In this document: one piece after another, positions 6,621-20,435 of the stretch
Position numbering within the stretch: position 1 is the stretch's first letter
Layout of the letters: each line of letters opens with the position of its first letter
Assembly (NCBI GenBank): GCA_029242715.1
Contig: JAQWTL010000020.1
Location: 124,001 to 188,000 of the forward strand
DNA from: Phycisphaerales bacterium
GTDB taxonomy: Bacteria; Planctomycetota; Phycisphaerae; Phycisphaerales; SM1A02
Length of the DNA: 64,000 bases
Direction of reading: 5' to 3'
Position numbers and translations under genes: made by a program
The notes under the pieces: model-generated
The model's database searches: none
Told to the model about the DNA's origin: nothing
Seen by the model: only the letters and a program-made list of their open reading frames with translations

Positions 6621-9600
6621 TCATGGCGTGACCAGTGATCTTCCGGACTCTCGCCTCAACTCATGTACGGTCAAGTGCGCATAGCCCTCATGATCGCGTC
6701 CACCTGAAGGGACCAGATAATCGACATGCATCTGCATGGCAGGTGACATGTCCGGAATCACCAACCAGGCCGAACGACGATCAGGTGAGAGCACCACGCG
6801 TTTCACCGGAAGGTTGGTCCGACCCTGGGATCCGTCGAGTTTGAATTCCGGTGAGCCATAGCGTTCCGACCACTGGTAGTTCCATGCATTGACATCCCAG
6901 TGATCCGGTGCAGAAGCCTCGGCGTCCAGCGGTTCGGTGAAATGCAGAACCAGTCCATCATTGACCGCCTTGACCTCATCAGGCAGGAAGGGCAAGGGGC
7001 CCGTTGATCTCACCCGATAGAAACCGCCATCCTCCTTGGCATCTGATGACCAACCCACCAGCCCACACAGGTAGAGATGACCATCTACTGGATTGAATCG
7101 ACCTGACATCAGTCCAGTCGGAATCTGAATGGGTAATGGAACGACACCACCCTGATGCACACCATCAACTTCGTCTTCGAGAATCAGGTACACCCGACCC
7201 GTACCGTATGACAAGCCCAGAAGCCGGCCATTCAGATCGCCCCATCCAGGATTCGTGACTCGCAGTTGCGAAGAGGGAGAACGATCAATGCTCGGGTGAA
7301 CCCATGCAAGAGGCAGGTCATAGGCGTCCTGGTCTTCCATCGGGGTGCCGGTCCAGTTGTTTCCATAGAAACCACCCGGGGTGATTCGATTGATGCGATT
7401 GGCTGGCATCCAGTGGCCTTCCTGATCCGAGCAGAAGAACACGCCATCCGGTTCGACGGCCAATCCCATCGGAGCACGGAAACCGGATGCCAGAACCTCG
7501 GATGTTTTTCCATCAGCCGAAATCTTCTGCAGTGTTCCATGGTGAGGATGAAGCGCATCCTTGGCATGCCTTGCAGCCTTGACGTAGTACAGGTTTCCAA
7601 GGGCATCACATTGAAGACCATTGGCAGGCTCATGAAAATGTTCGGTGTTCATGGTGTCACTGTTGATATTCACATAATGATCGGTCAACCAGTCATCATT
7701 GACATCAACCAGAGAAGTCACCTGATCGCGGCCGAGTACCAGGATCTCGTCACCGCGTGCACAGATCCCCAGCGGCTGATTCAGCCCGGAGGCGATCCGA
7801 GTCCATTTCAAGGATTCAAGATTCTCATCGATACCCTGCACCAGCCAGACATCACCACTCCAGGTCGTAATGACCGCAGTTTCCTCCTCGGGAAGAAAAT
7901 CCAGTGCGCCGAATCTCATCCATGAGTTCCATGGATTCTCTTCGGGCCGCGTGATGAGATCCACAGTGAAGGCGGATTCGCTGGGAAGCTTCATTCCCTG
8001 CATGAGAACAATGGCATCCTGAAGATTTGTCGCTGGCCCTTCCCAAGACATCAACCGGGCTTTCTGAAGAAACGGTTCACTGGGAACATGCAGTGCGATC
8101 TCTCCACTTCCCAATCGACGCCAGGTTGCGCTCGGAAGACGACCTTGAACCAACCAGGCTTGAACGATCGGCGCCCCCGTCTCAGCTGCCACCCATTGCA
8201 ACTGACTGGCATCCAGTGCCTCGAGATAGATCTGAACACCTTCGATGTAGCCACTGAAAGAAGACGGGTTCGGAAAGTCATCTGCAGTAAATCCCAATTG
8301 GACAACTGCGTCATCCACTGAATCCTTCAATGGAAGAAAGCCGGAGGCTTCTTCATGTCCGTCAAGGAACAGTCTGACCCGACCATCTTCGTGCGTCCAT
8401 GTAAAGGCTGCCTGATGCCAGGCACCGTCATCAATACGAGTGGTTCCTTCAACTACTCCAGTCCAGCCCACATCAAAGGCAAGACATCCCTCACGAATGA
8501 AGAACGTGACTCCATTGGGTACCCACGGGCCTTCCTGAAGGGTCTTGGACATGATCGTTCCATCAGACCGTGTTGCTATCCAGGCAGAGAAGGTGAGATC
8601 CGATGTCGTGAAGGGCATTCGACGACGTCCTTCCCAGATAGCGCGGGATGTACCATCAAAATCAAGTGATCGGCCTTTGATGCCCCGCCGCCAGGTAACC
8701 CCCTCAAGAATCAAATCCTGCTGCCCATTGACGGCATTTCGCATCGCGGGGCCTTGCCCCTCATCGAATGTCCAGGATGCAGAAGGTCTGATGGATAGTG
8801 ATGACTCGGGTGATTGAGCCACTACGTAGCTATCCTGAACGGGCAGATCAGCAGCAGTCAAGTCCTGGCCACTCAATGTCCTTACAGACATGACCGCACC
8901 CTTGTTTGCCCCAAGCGGAAACTCACGTGCCGGCTGATCTGCGTTGAGTTCTATGGACGTGGCATCTTCTGACCGCGATGGGTTGAAGTCCAACTGACCT
9001 GCCGTCTCTACCGTCTGGACCGAGCCTGCCTGTTTCGGTGATGAAAACCTGTCCATCTGCATCTTCGCATTCATCCCCGAGAGAATCTTGGCGAAGGTAT
9101 TGAGTTCATCTGCCTCTGTAATGGGTGCAATGAGAACCTGATAGACCTCTGGTCCATCATGTTGGCCTGGATGCAGAACAAGACGTACATCGTTTTCCTG
9201 CTGAATGACTCGTGCTCCACGAGGTCCCGGCTGAACGATGCCGATGGCCATGGCGGGACGGTTGCCATTCATCACGACAACACCAAAGCGGTCATCCCCG
9301 GAGATGCCCGGCTTATCAATTTTGATATCTGGTGAGCCAATCAGCTTCAAGGAATCTCGAGGAGCTTTCAGGATCTCGATAAACAGATCCTGATCCAGCC
9401 CTGCAACCTGAATGGTGCGGGTATAGACAGGCAACTCATCCCGTACGATCAGACCGGGCGTCTCCAGAATGGCCGTGTTTCCAACAACGTAGGAAAGCGC
9501 AACTTCATCGTCATGGATCTGCAGGCCTTTCCAGTGGCCACGCTCCACTTTCAGCGGTCCGTAGCGCCAAGGCCGGATATCCGCAAAATCACCGTCTACC

Positions 9601-9953
9601 GAAACCCCCGGCTTGCTGGTGCTCGACCAATCAGGCGTTCCATGAATGCCCGGATGAATGCCATGAGGTCCATCAAAGACAATGCCACGAAGCGCTACAC
9701 CGTCACCACGCCAACCTGCTGACCACCGAAGAAGGTCCATGTCAAAGAGCATGGTGGCCTCGCCTCCAGGCGTATCGCCCAAGGGAATTGCCAAACCCTT
9801 GCAGGCAATGTTGCCCTCCTCAACCTCGATGGAAGCAGACAGGAAAGGTCCGTAATCCATGACTTCCCATTTTGGCCCACCTTGTCCCAACAGAGCGCCA
9901 GGGCTGATCAGAAGACTGGCTGCTGCAAGGAGGGTTGGTCGTTTCAATTCCAT
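6621..9953 (-). CDS. Giant secreted protein: DUF6797-like, LamG and propeller domains
   Basis: 1110 residues with a signal peptide (MELKRPTLLAAASLL). The first ~280 residues, including MDYGPFLS, KGLAIPLGD and a DGPHG segment, look like the DUF6797 region found in planctomycetal secreted proteins (recalled, not searched). Residues about 390-585 form a LamG/concanavalin-A-like beta-sandwich (SWTFDEGQG ... GYIEGVQIY), likely carbohydrate binding. Residues about 680-980 resemble a glucose/sorbosone-dehydrogenase-like six-bladed propeller (PLGICARGDEILVL, GLAVEPDG). The C-terminus is a beta-sandwich segment. Related propeller proteins often carry a cytochrome c, but no CxxCH is present here. The ATG at 9953 has AAGGAG 8 nt upstream and is preferred to a TTG at 9983. 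The role is probably extracellular glycan recognition or oxidation. Confidence 0.75.
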   Translation of the reverse strand: MELKRPTLLAAASLLISPGALLGQGGPKWEVMDYGPFLSASIEVEEGNIACKGLAIPLGDTPGGEATMLFDMDLLRWSAGWRGDGVALRGIVFDGPHGIHPGIHGTPDWSSTSKPGVSVDGDFADIRPWRYGPLKVERGHWKGLQIHDDEVALSYVVGNTAILETPGLIVRDELPVYTRTIQVAGLDQDLFIEILKAPRDSLKLIGSPDIKIDKPGISGDDRFGVVVMNGNRPAMAIGIVQPGPRGARVIQQENDVRLVLHPGQHDGPEVYQVLIAPITEADELNTFAKILSGMNAKMQMDRFSSPKQAGSVQTVETAGQLDFNPSRSEDATSIELNADQPAREFPLGANKGAVMSVRTLSGQDLTAADLPVQDSYVVAQSPESSLSIRPSASWTFDEGQGPAMRNAVNGQQDLILEGVTWRRGIKGRSLDFDGTSRAIWEGRRRMPFTTSDLTFSAWIATRSDGTIMSKTLQEGPWVPNGVTFFIREGCLAFDVGWTGVVEGTTRIDDGAWHQAAFTWTHEDGRVRLFLDGHEEASGFLPLKDSVDDAVVQLGFTADDFPNPSSFSGYIEGVQIYLEALDASQLQWVAAETGAPIVQAWLVQGRLPSATWRRLGSGEIALHVPSEPFLQKARLMSWEGPATNLQDAIVLMQGMKLPSESAFTVDLITRPEENPWNSWMRFGALDFLPEEETAVITTWSGDVWLVQGIDENLESLKWTRIASGLNQPLGICARGDEILVLGRDQVTSLVDVNDDWLTDHYVNINSDTMNTEHFHEPANGLQCDALGNLYYVKAARHAKDALHPHHGTLQKISADGKTSEVLASGFRAPMGLAVEPDGVFFCSDQEGHWMPANRINRITPGGFYGNNWTGTPMEDQDAYDLPLAWVHPSIDRSPSSQLRVTNPGWGDLNGRLLGLSYGTGRVYLILEDEVDGVHQGGVVPLPIQIPTGLMSGRFNPVDGHLYLCGLVGWSSDAKEDGGFYRVRSTGPLPFLPDEVKAVNDGLVLHFTEPLDAEASAPDHWDVNAWNYQWSERYGSPEFKLDGSQGRTNLPVKRVVLSPDRRSAWLVIPDMSPAMQMHVDYLVPSGGRDHEGYAHLTVHELRRESGRSLVTP

Positions 9954-10217
9954 CGAGGAGCTCCTTGGAATGTCTGGAGGCAATCAGCAGATTGGTATTG
10001 GGAAGAGTCTAGGCCCTACAGAGCGGTTGCCCACCCGACCCTTTCTCCACAAGATGGATTTCGTGCCCCATTTAGACCGCAAAAAGCCCCCTATCGGGCC
10101 TCTGCATTGACGTCCCCTTGAAGCGGCCATTACAGTCCTCCAACATCCGACACCAGCGGGGAGTCGGGGATCGCACAGGATTTGATGCAATTTGGATCTA
10201 CTGGAGACCAGAAAACC

Positions 10218-10544
10218 ATGTCACTAATCAAGAACACGCTGATCGCTGCAACAGCAGGCCTCATCGCGGCAACAAGCTCCGCGATGGCAACAACCGAAAT
10301 GACCTACAACCCCTACTACGGTTATGACGCCTATGGCTACAGCGGCTATGGTTACGAAAGTGCCTCGATGTGGGCTGACTACTACCGCAACATCACCGGT
10401 GCCTACTTCGGTTACAACGATCCCACCCTCTACGGTGCCAGCTACTACAACGATGCCTATGCAGGCTACGGTTACATGACACAGTTTTACTACAACCCGT
10501 ATGCAGCTTATGCATACAATCCATACTACTACTTCATTCAGTAG
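10218..10544 (+). CDS. Small secreted Tyr/Gly-rich protein A
   Basis: 108 residues: a signal peptide of about 24 residues (MSLIKNTLIAATAGLIAATS) and a low-complexity mature part in which 26 of about 84 residues are Tyr, mixed with Gly, Ala and Asn. It has a single Arg, no Lys and no Cys, and ends in YNPYYYFIQ. No domain was recognised. The ATG at 10218 has GGAGA upstream; an in-frame TTG at 10182 would bury the signal peptide. A perfect terminator follows, so the gene is probably its own transcription unit. A second Tyr-rich protein with a similar end lies beyond the symporter. A structural role at the cell surface (aggregation or tyrosine cross-linking) is a guess. Confidence 0.75.
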   Translation: MSLIKNTLIAATAGLIAATSSAMATTEMTYNPYYGYDAYGYSGYGYESASMWADYYRNITGAYFGYNDPTLYGASYYNDAYAGYGYMTQFYYNPYAAYAYNPYYYFIQ

Positions 10545-10616
10545 TCTTCCGCCTTCCATGCGGGTCTAGCAATTGCTTGACCCTGAAATGCATGGAGGCC
10601 ATTGCATTTGAGTTTC

Positions 10617-10653
10617 ACGAATCGCCGCACCCTGTGCGGCGATTCGTCTTTTT
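10617..10653 (+). terminator. Rho-independent terminator of Tyr-rich gene A
   Basis: Perfect 14-bp stem (ACGAATCGCCGCAC and its complement), a 3-nt loop CCT, followed by CTTTTT. This is a textbook intrinsic terminator between Tyr-rich gene A and the symporter gene. Confidence 0.9.
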
Positions 10654-10728
10654 GCACATTGAGCGTACCAGCAGTTGGGATCTCAACCCGTTAGGCTAGA
10701 ACGGTCCTGATCTCAACGGGAAAGTCGT

Positions 10729-12432
10729 ATGCCCACCCTGCTCGCCACCATGTCCCTCTCTGCCATCGATGCCATTGTGTTCTTTGGCTTCATGGCCTTC
10801 GTGGTCATCGTGAGCCTGTGGGCCGCCCGCGGCAACCGGACCTCTGAGGACTACTTCCTGGCTGGCCGGAAGTTGACCTGGCCGCTGATCGGCATCTCGC
10901 TGATCGCATCCAACATCTCCTCAGAACATTTCGTTGGCATGACCGGTGGCGCCTACGGCGAACAAGGTCTGGCCATCGCTGCCTGGGAATGGATTGCAGC
11001 CATTGCGCTGGTTCTTGTTGGCTGGTTCCTGCTGCCACGGTTCCTTTCCGCTGGCATCTACACCATTCCCCAGTATCTGGAGTTTCGCTACAACCCAGCG
11101 ACGCGGTCCATCATGGCCACCTACATGCTGATCATCTACGTGATTGGCCTCTTTGCCATGACGCTCTACGGCGGCGCTGTCGCAATTGATGCCCTGTTTG
11201 ATCTTTCAAATCACTTCGCCGATTGGTTCGGACTGATGCCTACCGCCGAAGTGGTCGAACGAGAAGCCAATGGCGAGATCATTCCGCGTATGGATCAGGC
11301 ATCGTGGTGGGCCACCGTTGCTGGCATCTGGCTCATCGGAATCATCGCCGGCGCGTACACAGCCTGGGGCGGTTTGCCGGCCGTCATCTGGACCGATTTC
11401 ATCCAGGGCATCACGCTGTTGATCGGCGGTACGCTCGTACTCTGGTTTGCCGTCACCAACCTGGGAGAAGGCTCCTTCTTCGATGGTTGGTCAGCGTTCA
11501 CGAATCACAGCCATGAAAAACTCCACCTGATCAAGGACCGTGATCATGAAGCCCTCCCCTGGACAGCATTGCTGGCAGGCATCTGGATTCCCATCATTTT
11601 CTACTGGGGGCTGAATCAGTTCATCACACAAAGAGCGCTTGCTGCAAAGAGTGTTGCCGAAGGCCAACGCGGTGTGATGCTCGCTGCAGCACTCAAACTT
11701 TACCTGCCTCTGATCGTCGTCATTCCGGGCATCATCGCCTGGCAGATGTATGCCGAAGAACGTCCTGATCTTGGAGACAAGGCGTACCCGGTCATGATCG
11801 CCGAGATTCTGCCGGCATGGTTGCGTGGCATCCTGCTGGCCGCACTTGCGGGCGCTGTCATGAGCACCTTCAACTCGGGACTCAATGCGGCCTCAACCAT
11901 CTACACCATTGACGTCCACAAACGATGGTTCCAACCCACCGTTTCTTCAAGAGGCGAGCTCCGGGTCGGTCGAATCGCAACCGTGTTCCTCGTCATCTTC
12001 GGATGCTTGTGGGCACCGGTCATCTCCCAGTTCGATGGCATCTTCCAGTACATCCAGGAAGTCAACCTGTATGTCTCGGCGCCCATCCTGGCGGTGTTCG
12101 TAGTCGGCATGATCGATCCCAGGATGCCACCCATCTCCGCGGTCTGCGGACTGATCTTCGGCCCCGTCATCTATGGATTGTGCCGTGAAGGCGATGCCCT
12201 TGTTTCACAGGAATGGATGGCAGAATTCAACTCGTGGTCATTCCTGCATCATGGTCTGATCGTATTCATATCAGTCGCCGTGATCATGTGGATCCTGAGA
12301 TTGGCAGCACCGCTTCCAGAAAGACGCGCCATGCCTCGCAGCCAACTGGATACGCGAACGCCAACCGATGTCTGGGTCTGTGGCTCGCTGGTCATCCTGA
12401 TCACGGTCGGCCTGTACCTGTGGCTGGCCTGA
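10729..12432 (+). CDS. Sodium:solute symporter (SSS family)
   Basis: 567 residues with about 13-14 hydrophobic helices, typical of the SSS/SGLT fold. The early NRTSEDYFLAGRK segment and the following GISLIASNISSEHFVG helix (with the Na+-site Ser/Asn region) are diagnostic; GIYTIPQYLEFRYN is also characteristic. SGLT-type sugar transport is the closest impression, but myo-inositol or other substrates cannot be excluded. The protein acts in the inner membrane with Na+ as coupling ion. The gene sits alone between two Tyr-rich secreted protein genes and is separated from the first by a terminator, so it should have its own promoter within the 75 bp upstream. Confidence 0.9.
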   Translation: MPTLLATMSLSAIDAIVFFGFMAFVVIVSLWAARGNRTSEDYFLAGRKLTWPLIGISLIASNISSEHFVGMTGGAYGEQGLAIAAWEWIAAIALVLVGWFLLPRFLSAGIYTIPQYLEFRYNPATRSIMATYMLIIYVIGLFAMTLYGGAVAIDALFDLSNHFADWFGLMPTAEVVEREANGEIIPRMDQASWWATVAGIWLIGIIAGAYTAWGGLPAVIWTDFIQGITLLIGGTLVLWFAVTNLGEGSFFDGWSAFTNHSHEKLHLIKDRDHEALPWTALLAGIWIPIIFYWGLNQFITQRALAAKSVAEGQRGVMLAAALKLYLPLIVVIPGIIAWQMYAEERPDLGDKAYPVMIAEILPAWLRGILLAALAGAVMSTFNSGLNAASTIYTIDVHKRWFQPTVSSRGELRVGRIATVFLVIFGCLWAPVISQFDGIFQYIQEVNLYVSAPILAVFVVGMIDPRMPPISAVCGLIFGPVIYGLCREGDALVSQEWMAEFNSWSFLHHGLIVFISVAVIMWILRLAAPLPERRAMPRSQLDTRTPTDVWVCGSLVILITVGLYLWLA

Positions 12433-12550
12433 CGCGGCCCAATCGCCTCCCTGACGCCAAGGAGTTCACTGGAAAATGGATCCCAGTACTATCAAACAGT
12501 CAACTTGTTTTTGAACTCTGAAGATTGAACCTTAAGAATCGGGACTACAC

Positions 12551-12946
12551 ATGAAACAAATCACTTTGAAATCCGTTTTCACAATCGCACTCATGATGTT
12601 TGCTGGCATCTCGTTCCTGAGCAGCTCGGCATTTGCACAATCATCTCCATGGGTCACGACGACTGCCAGCCCGTACACCAATCCCTACGCAACCGCGTCA
12701 TACCCGGCGAGCAGTTACACCTCCGATTACAACTACTATTACAACACGCTCTACAGCCCATATGAGAACCTGTACAACAGCTACATAGGCGACGGCAACT
12801 TCAATAGCGTGTACAACGCACTCTTCCCGGGCTACTTCAACATGTACTACAGCATGCCTACAACGCCCATGTATCTGCCCTTCACATACTCGCCGTATGG
12901 CTATGGCAGTTACTACTCCAGCTACAACCCCTATTACTACTATTGA
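12551..12946 (+). CDS. Small secreted Tyr-rich protein B
   Basis: 131 residues. The signal peptide (about 30 residues) ends in SSSAFA, followed by a mature chain of about 102 residues with 27 Tyr plus Ser, Pro, Asn and Thr. The mature part has no Lys, Arg or Cys and ends in SYNPYYYY. Composition, small size, secretion and C-terminal motif match Tyr-rich protein A, although overall alignment is loose. A TTGAAC-N8-TTGAAC direct repeat lies about 35-55 nt upstream and might be regulatory. A strong terminator follows. No known family was recognised; a surface or matrix structural role is only a hypothesis. Confidence 0.75.
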   Translation: MKQITLKSVFTIALMMFAGISFLSSSAFAQSSPWVTTTASPYTNPYATASYPASSYTSDYNYYYNTLYSPYENLYNSYIGDGNFNSVYNALFPGYFNMYYSMPTTPMYLPFTYSPYGYGSYYSSYNPYYYY

Positions 12947-12998
12947 AGCACTGTAGACTGCCTATTGTCCAACGAGACAATTTTACAAACAAAGCATG

Positions 12999-13037
12999 AA
13001 ACCCTGCTTTGGCAAGACATGCCGAAGCAGGGTTTTT
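12999..13037 (+). terminator. Rho-independent terminator of Tyr-rich gene B
   Basis: AAACCCTGCTT pairs with AAGCAGGGTTT, and the stem continues through one T-G wobble into GGCA/TGCC around a 5-nt loop. The stem is followed by TT. It also serves as a barrier to transcription reaching the convergent SDR gene. Confidence 0.85.
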
Positions 13038-19418: not shown

Positions 19419-20435
19419 CTATGGGCAGAACTGGTCTGCGTAGGCCTGACAGGCAGAATCCCAGTTCGTACAGCAATACTCATAGCCAGGTGTCGTATGA
19501 ACACAGTTGCAAATCGGTGGTGGAATCATGTTCGCTGCACAAGCGTCACAACCACCACCGCCGCCGCCACCGCCATTAAAGTTGCGGGGATCAGGATCTC
19601 CGTGGTAGCACCCAGCAATCCAGGGGAAGCCGTTGACGTCGAGTTCAAACGAAATGGCGTGGTAATGCCAGCCTCGCACTTCATCGTAATGGCCATTGCA
19701 ATCATCCAGTGCCATGGCACCCGTCAGATCCTTCGCGAAGACGCCTGGGCTCTCGTAGGGACCATAGACCGGGAAGCCGTCAAACTCATAGCCCATCAGG
19801 ATCGAGTGGCCATCAGCCCCCAGGTCATATGCCCAATCAGATGCCTGGTGATAGTGGTATGAACCGTCTGGCGAGGGGTGAGCATTGAATTCATCGAAGC
19901 AGATCGTGCTCGGAGCATCTGTCATGCCGCCGTCATAAGGGTTGTACATGGACACGCCATTGGTGCAGACACCAACAGCACCCAGCGTATTCAACAGATT
20001 GACAGAAGGTGAACTGGTCGGAACTGGATTCAACTTGATGTACCAGGTGAAATTCTGATCCGTTGGGGTATTGGGATTGAAGCATCCAGTGGATCCATCA
20101 AACGGGCCCATGGGATGGTCTGCAAGACCCGTTCCCGTGACAACCGCAACGCCTTCGTCGTAATCCATGGTGACCGTCACGTCATTCGTAAATGGATGAC
20201 AGGTGAGACCGAATTCCTCAAGAACCTGAAGGATTTCATGAACACCACAGTTCCCGTCCCCGTCGGTGTCGTGTTGATCGCTTCCCCACGCAGAAACAAT
20301 ATCCAGCACATCACTGACGTCTACCGCTGCATCACCATTGATGTCCGAATCACATCCCAGTCGGGTCTGGCTGCTTGCTGAAGCAAAGCCAGTAGCAGCA
20401 ACGACAATCGTCGCAGTGAAGAGGAGCCGTTTCAT
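19419..20435 (-). CDS. Secreted YHYH-domain protein with N-terminal dockerin-like module
   Basis: 338 residues with signal peptide (MKRLLFTATIVVAAT). A dockerin-like pair (DINGDAAVDVSDVLDIVSAWG, then DTDGDGNCG) occupies about residues 28-72, at the N-terminus rather than the usual C-terminus. The YHYH domain follows (GSYHYHQASD, GYEFDGFPVYGPYE, RGWHYHAI), a family of secreted proteins of unknown activity with clustered His/Tyr. A run of eight Gly leads to a Cys-rich tail (CDACAAN ... YCCTNWDSAC). AAGGA precedes the ATG. Located directly upstream of the redoxin gene, same strand, so it may be co-transcribed. Role probably surface binding. Confidence 0.82.
   Translation of the reverse strand: MKRLLFTATIVVAATGFASASSQTRLGCDSDINGDAAVDVSDVLDIVSAWGSDQHDTDGDGNCGVHEILQVLEEFGLTCHPFTNDVTVTMDYDEGVAVVTGTGLADHPMGPFDGSTGCFNPNTPTDQNFTWYIKLNPVPTSSPSVNLLNTLGAVGVCTNGVSMYNPYDGGMTDAPSTICFDEFNAHPSPDGSYHYHQASDWAYDLGADGHSILMGYEFDGFPVYGPYESPGVFAKDLTGAMALDDCNGHYDEVRGWHYHAISFELDVNGFPWIAGCYHGDPDPRNFNGGGGGGGGCDACAANMIPPPICNCVHTTPGYEYCCTNWDSACQAYADQFCP

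Follow-up and report, generated by a model that had tools for sequence, protein, structure and literature searches.

Within the window, i.e., the whole stretch of 64,000 nucleotides that was analysed, the gene of a sodium:solute symporter is bracketed by two genes encoding small Tyr-rich proteins with signal-peptide-like N-termini, namely protein A on its upstream side and protein B on its downstream side. The features of this locus are the following:

10107-10136, plus strand: candidate sigma-70-like promoter of gene A (TTGACG-18-TACAGT), from a consensus scan alone, in which the count of matches is not above chance expectation
10218-10544, plus strand: gene A (ATG at 10218, GGAG at 10203-10206), encoding protein A, 108 aa, Tyr-rich and predicted to be secreted, with the signal peptide at 10218-10289 and the mature chain at 10290-10541
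10383-10421, plus strand: conserved signature of the A family, YRNITGAYFGYND, common to the two paralogs of A listed further below
10617-10647, plus strand: terminator of gene A, a 14-bp stem then CTTTTT (folding z -6.6 against shuffled sequences)
10729-12432, plus strand: sodium:solute symporter (SSF, PRK10484 type), between the genes of A and B
12551-12946, plus strand: gene B (ATG at 12551), encoding protein B, 131 aa, Tyr-rich and predicted to be secreted, with the signal peptide at 12551-12637 and the mature chain at 12638-12943
12797-12850, plus strand: conserved core of the B family, NFNSVYNALFPGYFNMYY, from the alignment with proteins of the congeneric genomes G002 and G004
12998-13036, plus strand: terminator of gene B, a 17-bp stem then a T run (folding z -7.2 against shuffled sequences)

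Both N-termini are of the Sec type, with an AxA cleavage site after residue 24 in A (AMA) and after residue 29 in B (AFA). Mature A (84 aa) contains 26 Tyr (31%), a single Arg and neither Lys nor Cys, and ends in YNPYYYFIQ; mature B (102 aa) contains 27 Tyr (26%), no Lys, Arg or Cys, and ends in YNPYYYY. As such, the recount and the folding scores confirm the preliminary description of two Tyr-rich, Lys- and Cys-free proteins with a YNPYYY tail, bracketing a symporter and each followed by a strong terminator, and its claim that they are secreted is borne out, at the level of sequence, by the signal peptides. Among the 2786 open reading frames (ORFs) of at least 60 aa in 492 kb sampled from the source genome, A ranks first (0.217) and B second (0.206) in Tyr fraction over the whole ORF, the third and fourth ranks being held by two paralogs of A and the best unrelated ORF reaching 0.075. 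An origin of the Tyr richness in DNA repeats was rejected, as only short and weak 12-mer repeats were found, and so was an antisense ORF at 10224-10559 (minus strand), whose richness in Val mirrors the Tyr codons of gene A. The aromatic fraction amounts to 0.36 in A and 0.31 in B, with 3-6 acidic residues, and the aromatics are slightly more evenly spaced than in shuffled sequences, 5-7% of which are equally even. Apart from composition, there is no resemblance between A and B (z 1.3 against shuffles) and a common ancestry was rejected on that score; nonetheless, none of 20,000 shuffles with their compositions gave a common 6-mer within the last nine residues.

Regarding codon use, the share of TAC among Tyr codons is 0.77 in A and 0.74 in B (0.57 genome-wide, 0.88 in GroEL) and that of AAC among Asn codons 0.86 and 0.80, respectively (0.52 genome-wide, 0.85 in GroEL). 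This preference for codons ending in C, which GroEL shares, hints at high expression. Structure prediction returned a pLDDT of 40 for A and 43 for B with no confident part, though the alignments held three sequences only and such low values are no proof of disorder. The best-predicted part of the B model (residues 61-100, pLDDT about 52-64) is weakly helical and comprises the conserved core.

Profile searches in Pfam, NCBIfam, PHROG and PDB gave no match to A or B, in agreement with the preliminary description, which knew of no described family, and Rfam held nothing relevant. Among 100 relatives searched by profile, no relative of B was found outside the genus and A had one marginal match (E 0.003), in a different family of the order; across 84,980 scanned genomes, A had no relative and B only the protein of G002. 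By sequence comparison, then, A and B have no convincing relative beyond the genus, it being understood that this survey used sequence profiles plus a single motif and would miss proteins conserved in composition alone. Descriptions of such bacterial Tyr-rich proteins were not found in the open-access literature.

Inside the source genome, A has two paralogs:

L053:7372-7830, minus strand: paralog of A adjoining GroEL, with an added Arg/Glu-rich, probably helical tail
L054:7137-7676, plus strand: paralog of A

The regions YRNI[TI]GAYFGY and AGxGY...YYNPY are common to A and both paralogs. A scores z 13-15 with them against shuffled sequences and, compared with the first paralog, shows 37, 30 and 59 differences at codon positions 1, 2 and 3, respectively; this excess at third positions, along with the z-scores, establishes the A family as a real coding family. 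Around the GroEL orthologs of five congeners no Tyr-rich ORF was found, so that an A-family paralog next to GroEL occurs in the source genome only.

The conservation of the locus was considered in six genomes of the genus, namely the source genome (G000) and five congeners, each in several to many contigs. The symporter (SSF, E 1.3e-60; NF007790/PRK10484, 436.8 bits against a cut-off of 401) has orthologs with 82-91% identity in three of the five congeners, i.e., G002, G003 and G004, where the symporter locus is kept; the identity is 90-91% in G002 and G004, the two relatives with Tyr-rich proteins there. G001 and G005 gave weak symporter matches only, with no ortholog found. The recurrence of similar genes near the symporter, which the preliminary description had put forward for checking, is thus seen in two relatives, and three of the four genus genomes with the locus encode Tyr-rich, Lys/Arg/Cys-free, putatively secreted proteins in one or both gaps flanking the symporter (slot A and slot B hereafter), on both sides in G000 and G004. 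In G002 the order is DUF6797 gene, symporter, Tyr-rich gene, SDR, STAS and PhoD; G003 shows this very order but no Tyr-rich gene; in G004, which lacks the SDR, slot A contains a single Tyr-rich gene and slot B a pair. The two slot-B genes of G004 (L051:12637-13579) occupy the position of the SDR in the other genomes, the first of them (L051:12637-13083) having no likeness to anything else found. Since the locus of G003 does without them and no symporter ortholog was found in two congeners, the Tyr-rich proteins are dispensable.

This arrangement invites a reading in which the exported Tyr-rich chains are aromatic-rich glycan binders, keeping oligosaccharides close to the cell by CH-pi stacking and helping to feed an SGLT-type symporter. 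In keeping with it, the symporter locus is the only place with Tyr-rich ORFs in the sampled DNA of G002 and G004 (219 kb each), the genes stand on both sides of the symporter in two genomes, the symporter is a solute:sodium one of PRK10484 type, and the gene adjoining A carries a LamG/concanavalin-like domain. Against it, A and B contain no carbohydrate-binding fold or family that could be found, the two paralogs of A lie elsewhere, one of them by GroEL, and the symporter of G003 has no Tyr-rich protein at its side; such a role is regarded as unlikely. As to the neighbours themselves, the protein adjoining A (6621-9983) combines the LamG/concanavalin-like domain with DUF6797 and has 61-69% identity in congeners, hence also evolves faster than the symporter. 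Further along the window, 19419-20435 encodes a probably secreted YHYH-domain protein with an N-terminal segment, DSDINGDAAVDVSDVLDIV, which by eye is dockerin-like.

With the locus held in place, the coding sequences in the slots diverge. Between G000 and G002, the symporter, SDR and STAS proteins have 88-91% identity and B only 43% (252 aa in G002, z 14.8), the outer neighbours PhoD (74%) and DUF6797 (69%) evolving faster than the symporter and far slower than B. The B ortholog of G004 is weaker (25% identity, z 3.2; z 6.2 against the G002 protein), and all three proteins have the core Y[ND]x[LT][FY]PGYF in common. The G002 ortholog (L050:7877-8632) bears a C-terminal extension in which a helix-DGEIT-helix, resembling by eye a SHOCT-type hairpin, gave no profile match. 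In slot A, the G004 protein is without similarity to A (z 0.2) and nearer to B (z 5.0); nonetheless, the stem of the A terminator, CGCCGCACCC[T/C]GTGCGGCG, is also present behind this G004 gene, the rest of the sampled DNA being without it, and the B terminator is conserved behind the G002 ortholog. As terminator stems are kept around changed genes, it follows that the slots and their transcription signals persist even where the gene inside has been altered or exchanged.

Divergence of this kind might reflect surface proteins turning over rapidly under pressure from phages, predators or competitors, their Tyr richness being incidental to a coat serving as decoy or receptor. The far faster divergence of B than of its neighbours, a slot content varying by species and the third gene of G004 are all compatible with it, but the composition and the exclusion of Lys, Arg and Cys are kept, which is not obviously expected from diversifying selection, and we hold this to be improbable. 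More improbable still is that the ORFs are young, near-neutral or selfish and of little function in a gene-poor spot: while the searches place them in this genus alone, G003 lacks them and the genome collection contains no relatives outside the genus, a function is indicated by the signal peptides, the conserved terminators, the third-position excess of the A family, the use of preferred codons and a composition that recurs.

What recurs across the slots can be specified further. From residue 26 onwards, the four congeneric Tyr-rich proteins contain 18-25% Tyr and no Lys or Arg, and the tripeptide NPY is observed 11 times against 0.93 expected across eight proteins, several of them mutually unrelated, although these counts are not independent as homologous and tandem copies are included. 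The homologs and slot neighbours end in ...YEPTYYSF, ...YWNQ, ...WSYLF, ...EQYFG, ...IRRWS and ...YRPQF, and neither the paralogs nor any of the four congeneric proteins has the YNPYYY tail. The preliminary description had proposed that composition and C-terminal motif were both kept; composition does recur in the congeneric proteins despite their altered sequences, together with gene position, terminators and NPY, and the C-terminal motif does not. Its suggestion that the tail could be an export or outer-membrane signal fails on the same ground, a tail that is not conserved not being an export signal. Scans of 151 genomes of the family and 248 of the class found YNPYYY in proteins of this kind in the source genome only. 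The other matches to the pattern that were checked were set aside as unrelated, i.e., a 957-aa protein of G004, a repeat protein of G332 and two places without such an ORF. This G332 protein (L125:52-3021) has 989 residues, 10% Tyr and many NNTI/GNTF beta-helix-like repeats, YNPYYY being apparently coincidental there.

The explanation tentatively preferred, with somewhat less than even confidence, is that A and B are secreted disordered chains self-associating via Tyr stickers at the cell surface or in a matrix; self-association, already evoked in the preliminary description, is plausible from composition. In prion-like domains, the aromatic fraction is 0.19-0.43, Tyr is stronger than Phe, Lys is destabilising and dispersed aromatics favour condensation (PMC11820118). 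With a high aromatic fraction falling within that range, few charges and little Lys, A and B have a composition of this type, and it is because of this fit to the sticker-and-spacer rule that self-associating disordered chains are proposed. Sec would export A and B as small, largely unfolded chains, in which the evenly spread Tyr would act as stickers between Ser, Asn, Gly, Pro, Thr and Ala spacers. With no Lys and almost no Arg, the chains would be held together by Tyr-Tyr stacking and hydrogen bonding, and their assembly beyond the cytoplasmic membrane could form a sticky layer, a condensate or a matrix, supplied by single-gene units from which both proteins are probably produced in quantity. 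The Tyr content, the absence of Lys, Arg and Cys, the signal peptide, the position and the terminator would be what is kept, and the sequence might drift fast or be exchanged because the property would reside in composition. A pure composition model is nevertheless challenged by the A family, which keeps a specific 13-residue signature, and by the B core, which is conserved and weakly helical; in addition, the steady position beside the symporter suggests a more specific job, and the lack of such proteins at the G003 locus also speaks against the preferred explanation.

Alternatively, the exported chains might be precursors of a covalently hardened coat, in which oxidation would create dityrosine or DOPA links of the kind found in mussel glue and oocyst walls; tyrosine cross-linking was raised in the preliminary description too. 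The very high Tyr content, the lack of Cys and hence of disulfides, the small size and low complexity of the chains and their signal peptides would suit such a fate. However, no cross-linking enzyme was seen at the locus of A and B, and the Lys used by mussel-type glues is missing in both proteins; this outcome is held to be rather unlikely. A search of the genome for tyrosinase (PF00264) found none, its control being silent as well. The oocyst walls of apicomplexans contain small secreted Tyr-rich proteins with dityrosine formed by oxidative cross-linking; A and B are alike in being small, Tyr-rich and predicted to be secreted, and differ from these eukaryotic, oxidatively cross-linked proteins in that no cross-linking enzyme was identified here.

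Taking the preferred explanation of Tyr-mediated self-association one step further, A and B may exemplify a class of exported bacterial proteins, at the level of the genus, whose composition (Tyr-rich, free of Lys, Arg and Cys, studded with NPY) would be under selection in place of their sequence. Locus, terminator and physical chemistry would then persist as the protein changes beyond recognition, and the class would be an extracellular bacterial counterpart of condensate proteins with Tyr stickers, linked to the locus of a sodium-solute symporter. This generalisation is doubtful as it stands. If true, nature would offer here a way to learn whether selection in a bacterium can act on low-complexity composition by itself, equivalent positions between genes about 90% identical having kept composition and largely lost sequence similarity. 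Marine planctomycetes would also be the source of a new exported material based on Tyr, and the case would caution that such proteins escape searches by homology.

Among known surface proteins of planctomycetes, the YTV cell-wall proteins are rich in Cys, and reports of them are confined to Planctomycetales (PMC8567305). They are lineage-restricted like A and B, for which a surface role would be a further likeness, but A and B contain no Cys and come from a Phycisphaerae genome, and are therefore not members. The curli CsgA and FapC amyloids are also secreted, of low charge and suited to self-assembly, whereas A and B have no curlin or Fap family match in Pfam and NCBIfam and no regular repeats. 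A further parallel lies with prion-like domains of the FUS/hnRNPA1 type, to which A and B are similar by an aromatic fraction within their range, Tyr stickers, Ser/Gly/Asn spacers, almost no Lys and no predicted fold. Those domains are eukaryotic, intracellular and usually contain Arg and Gln, whereas A and B are whole bacterial proteins with predicted export, and the likeness is one of composition with no common ancestry shown. We propose that A and B work like Tyr-rich low-complexity proteins, the surprising part being that the locus is conserved and the sequence lost.
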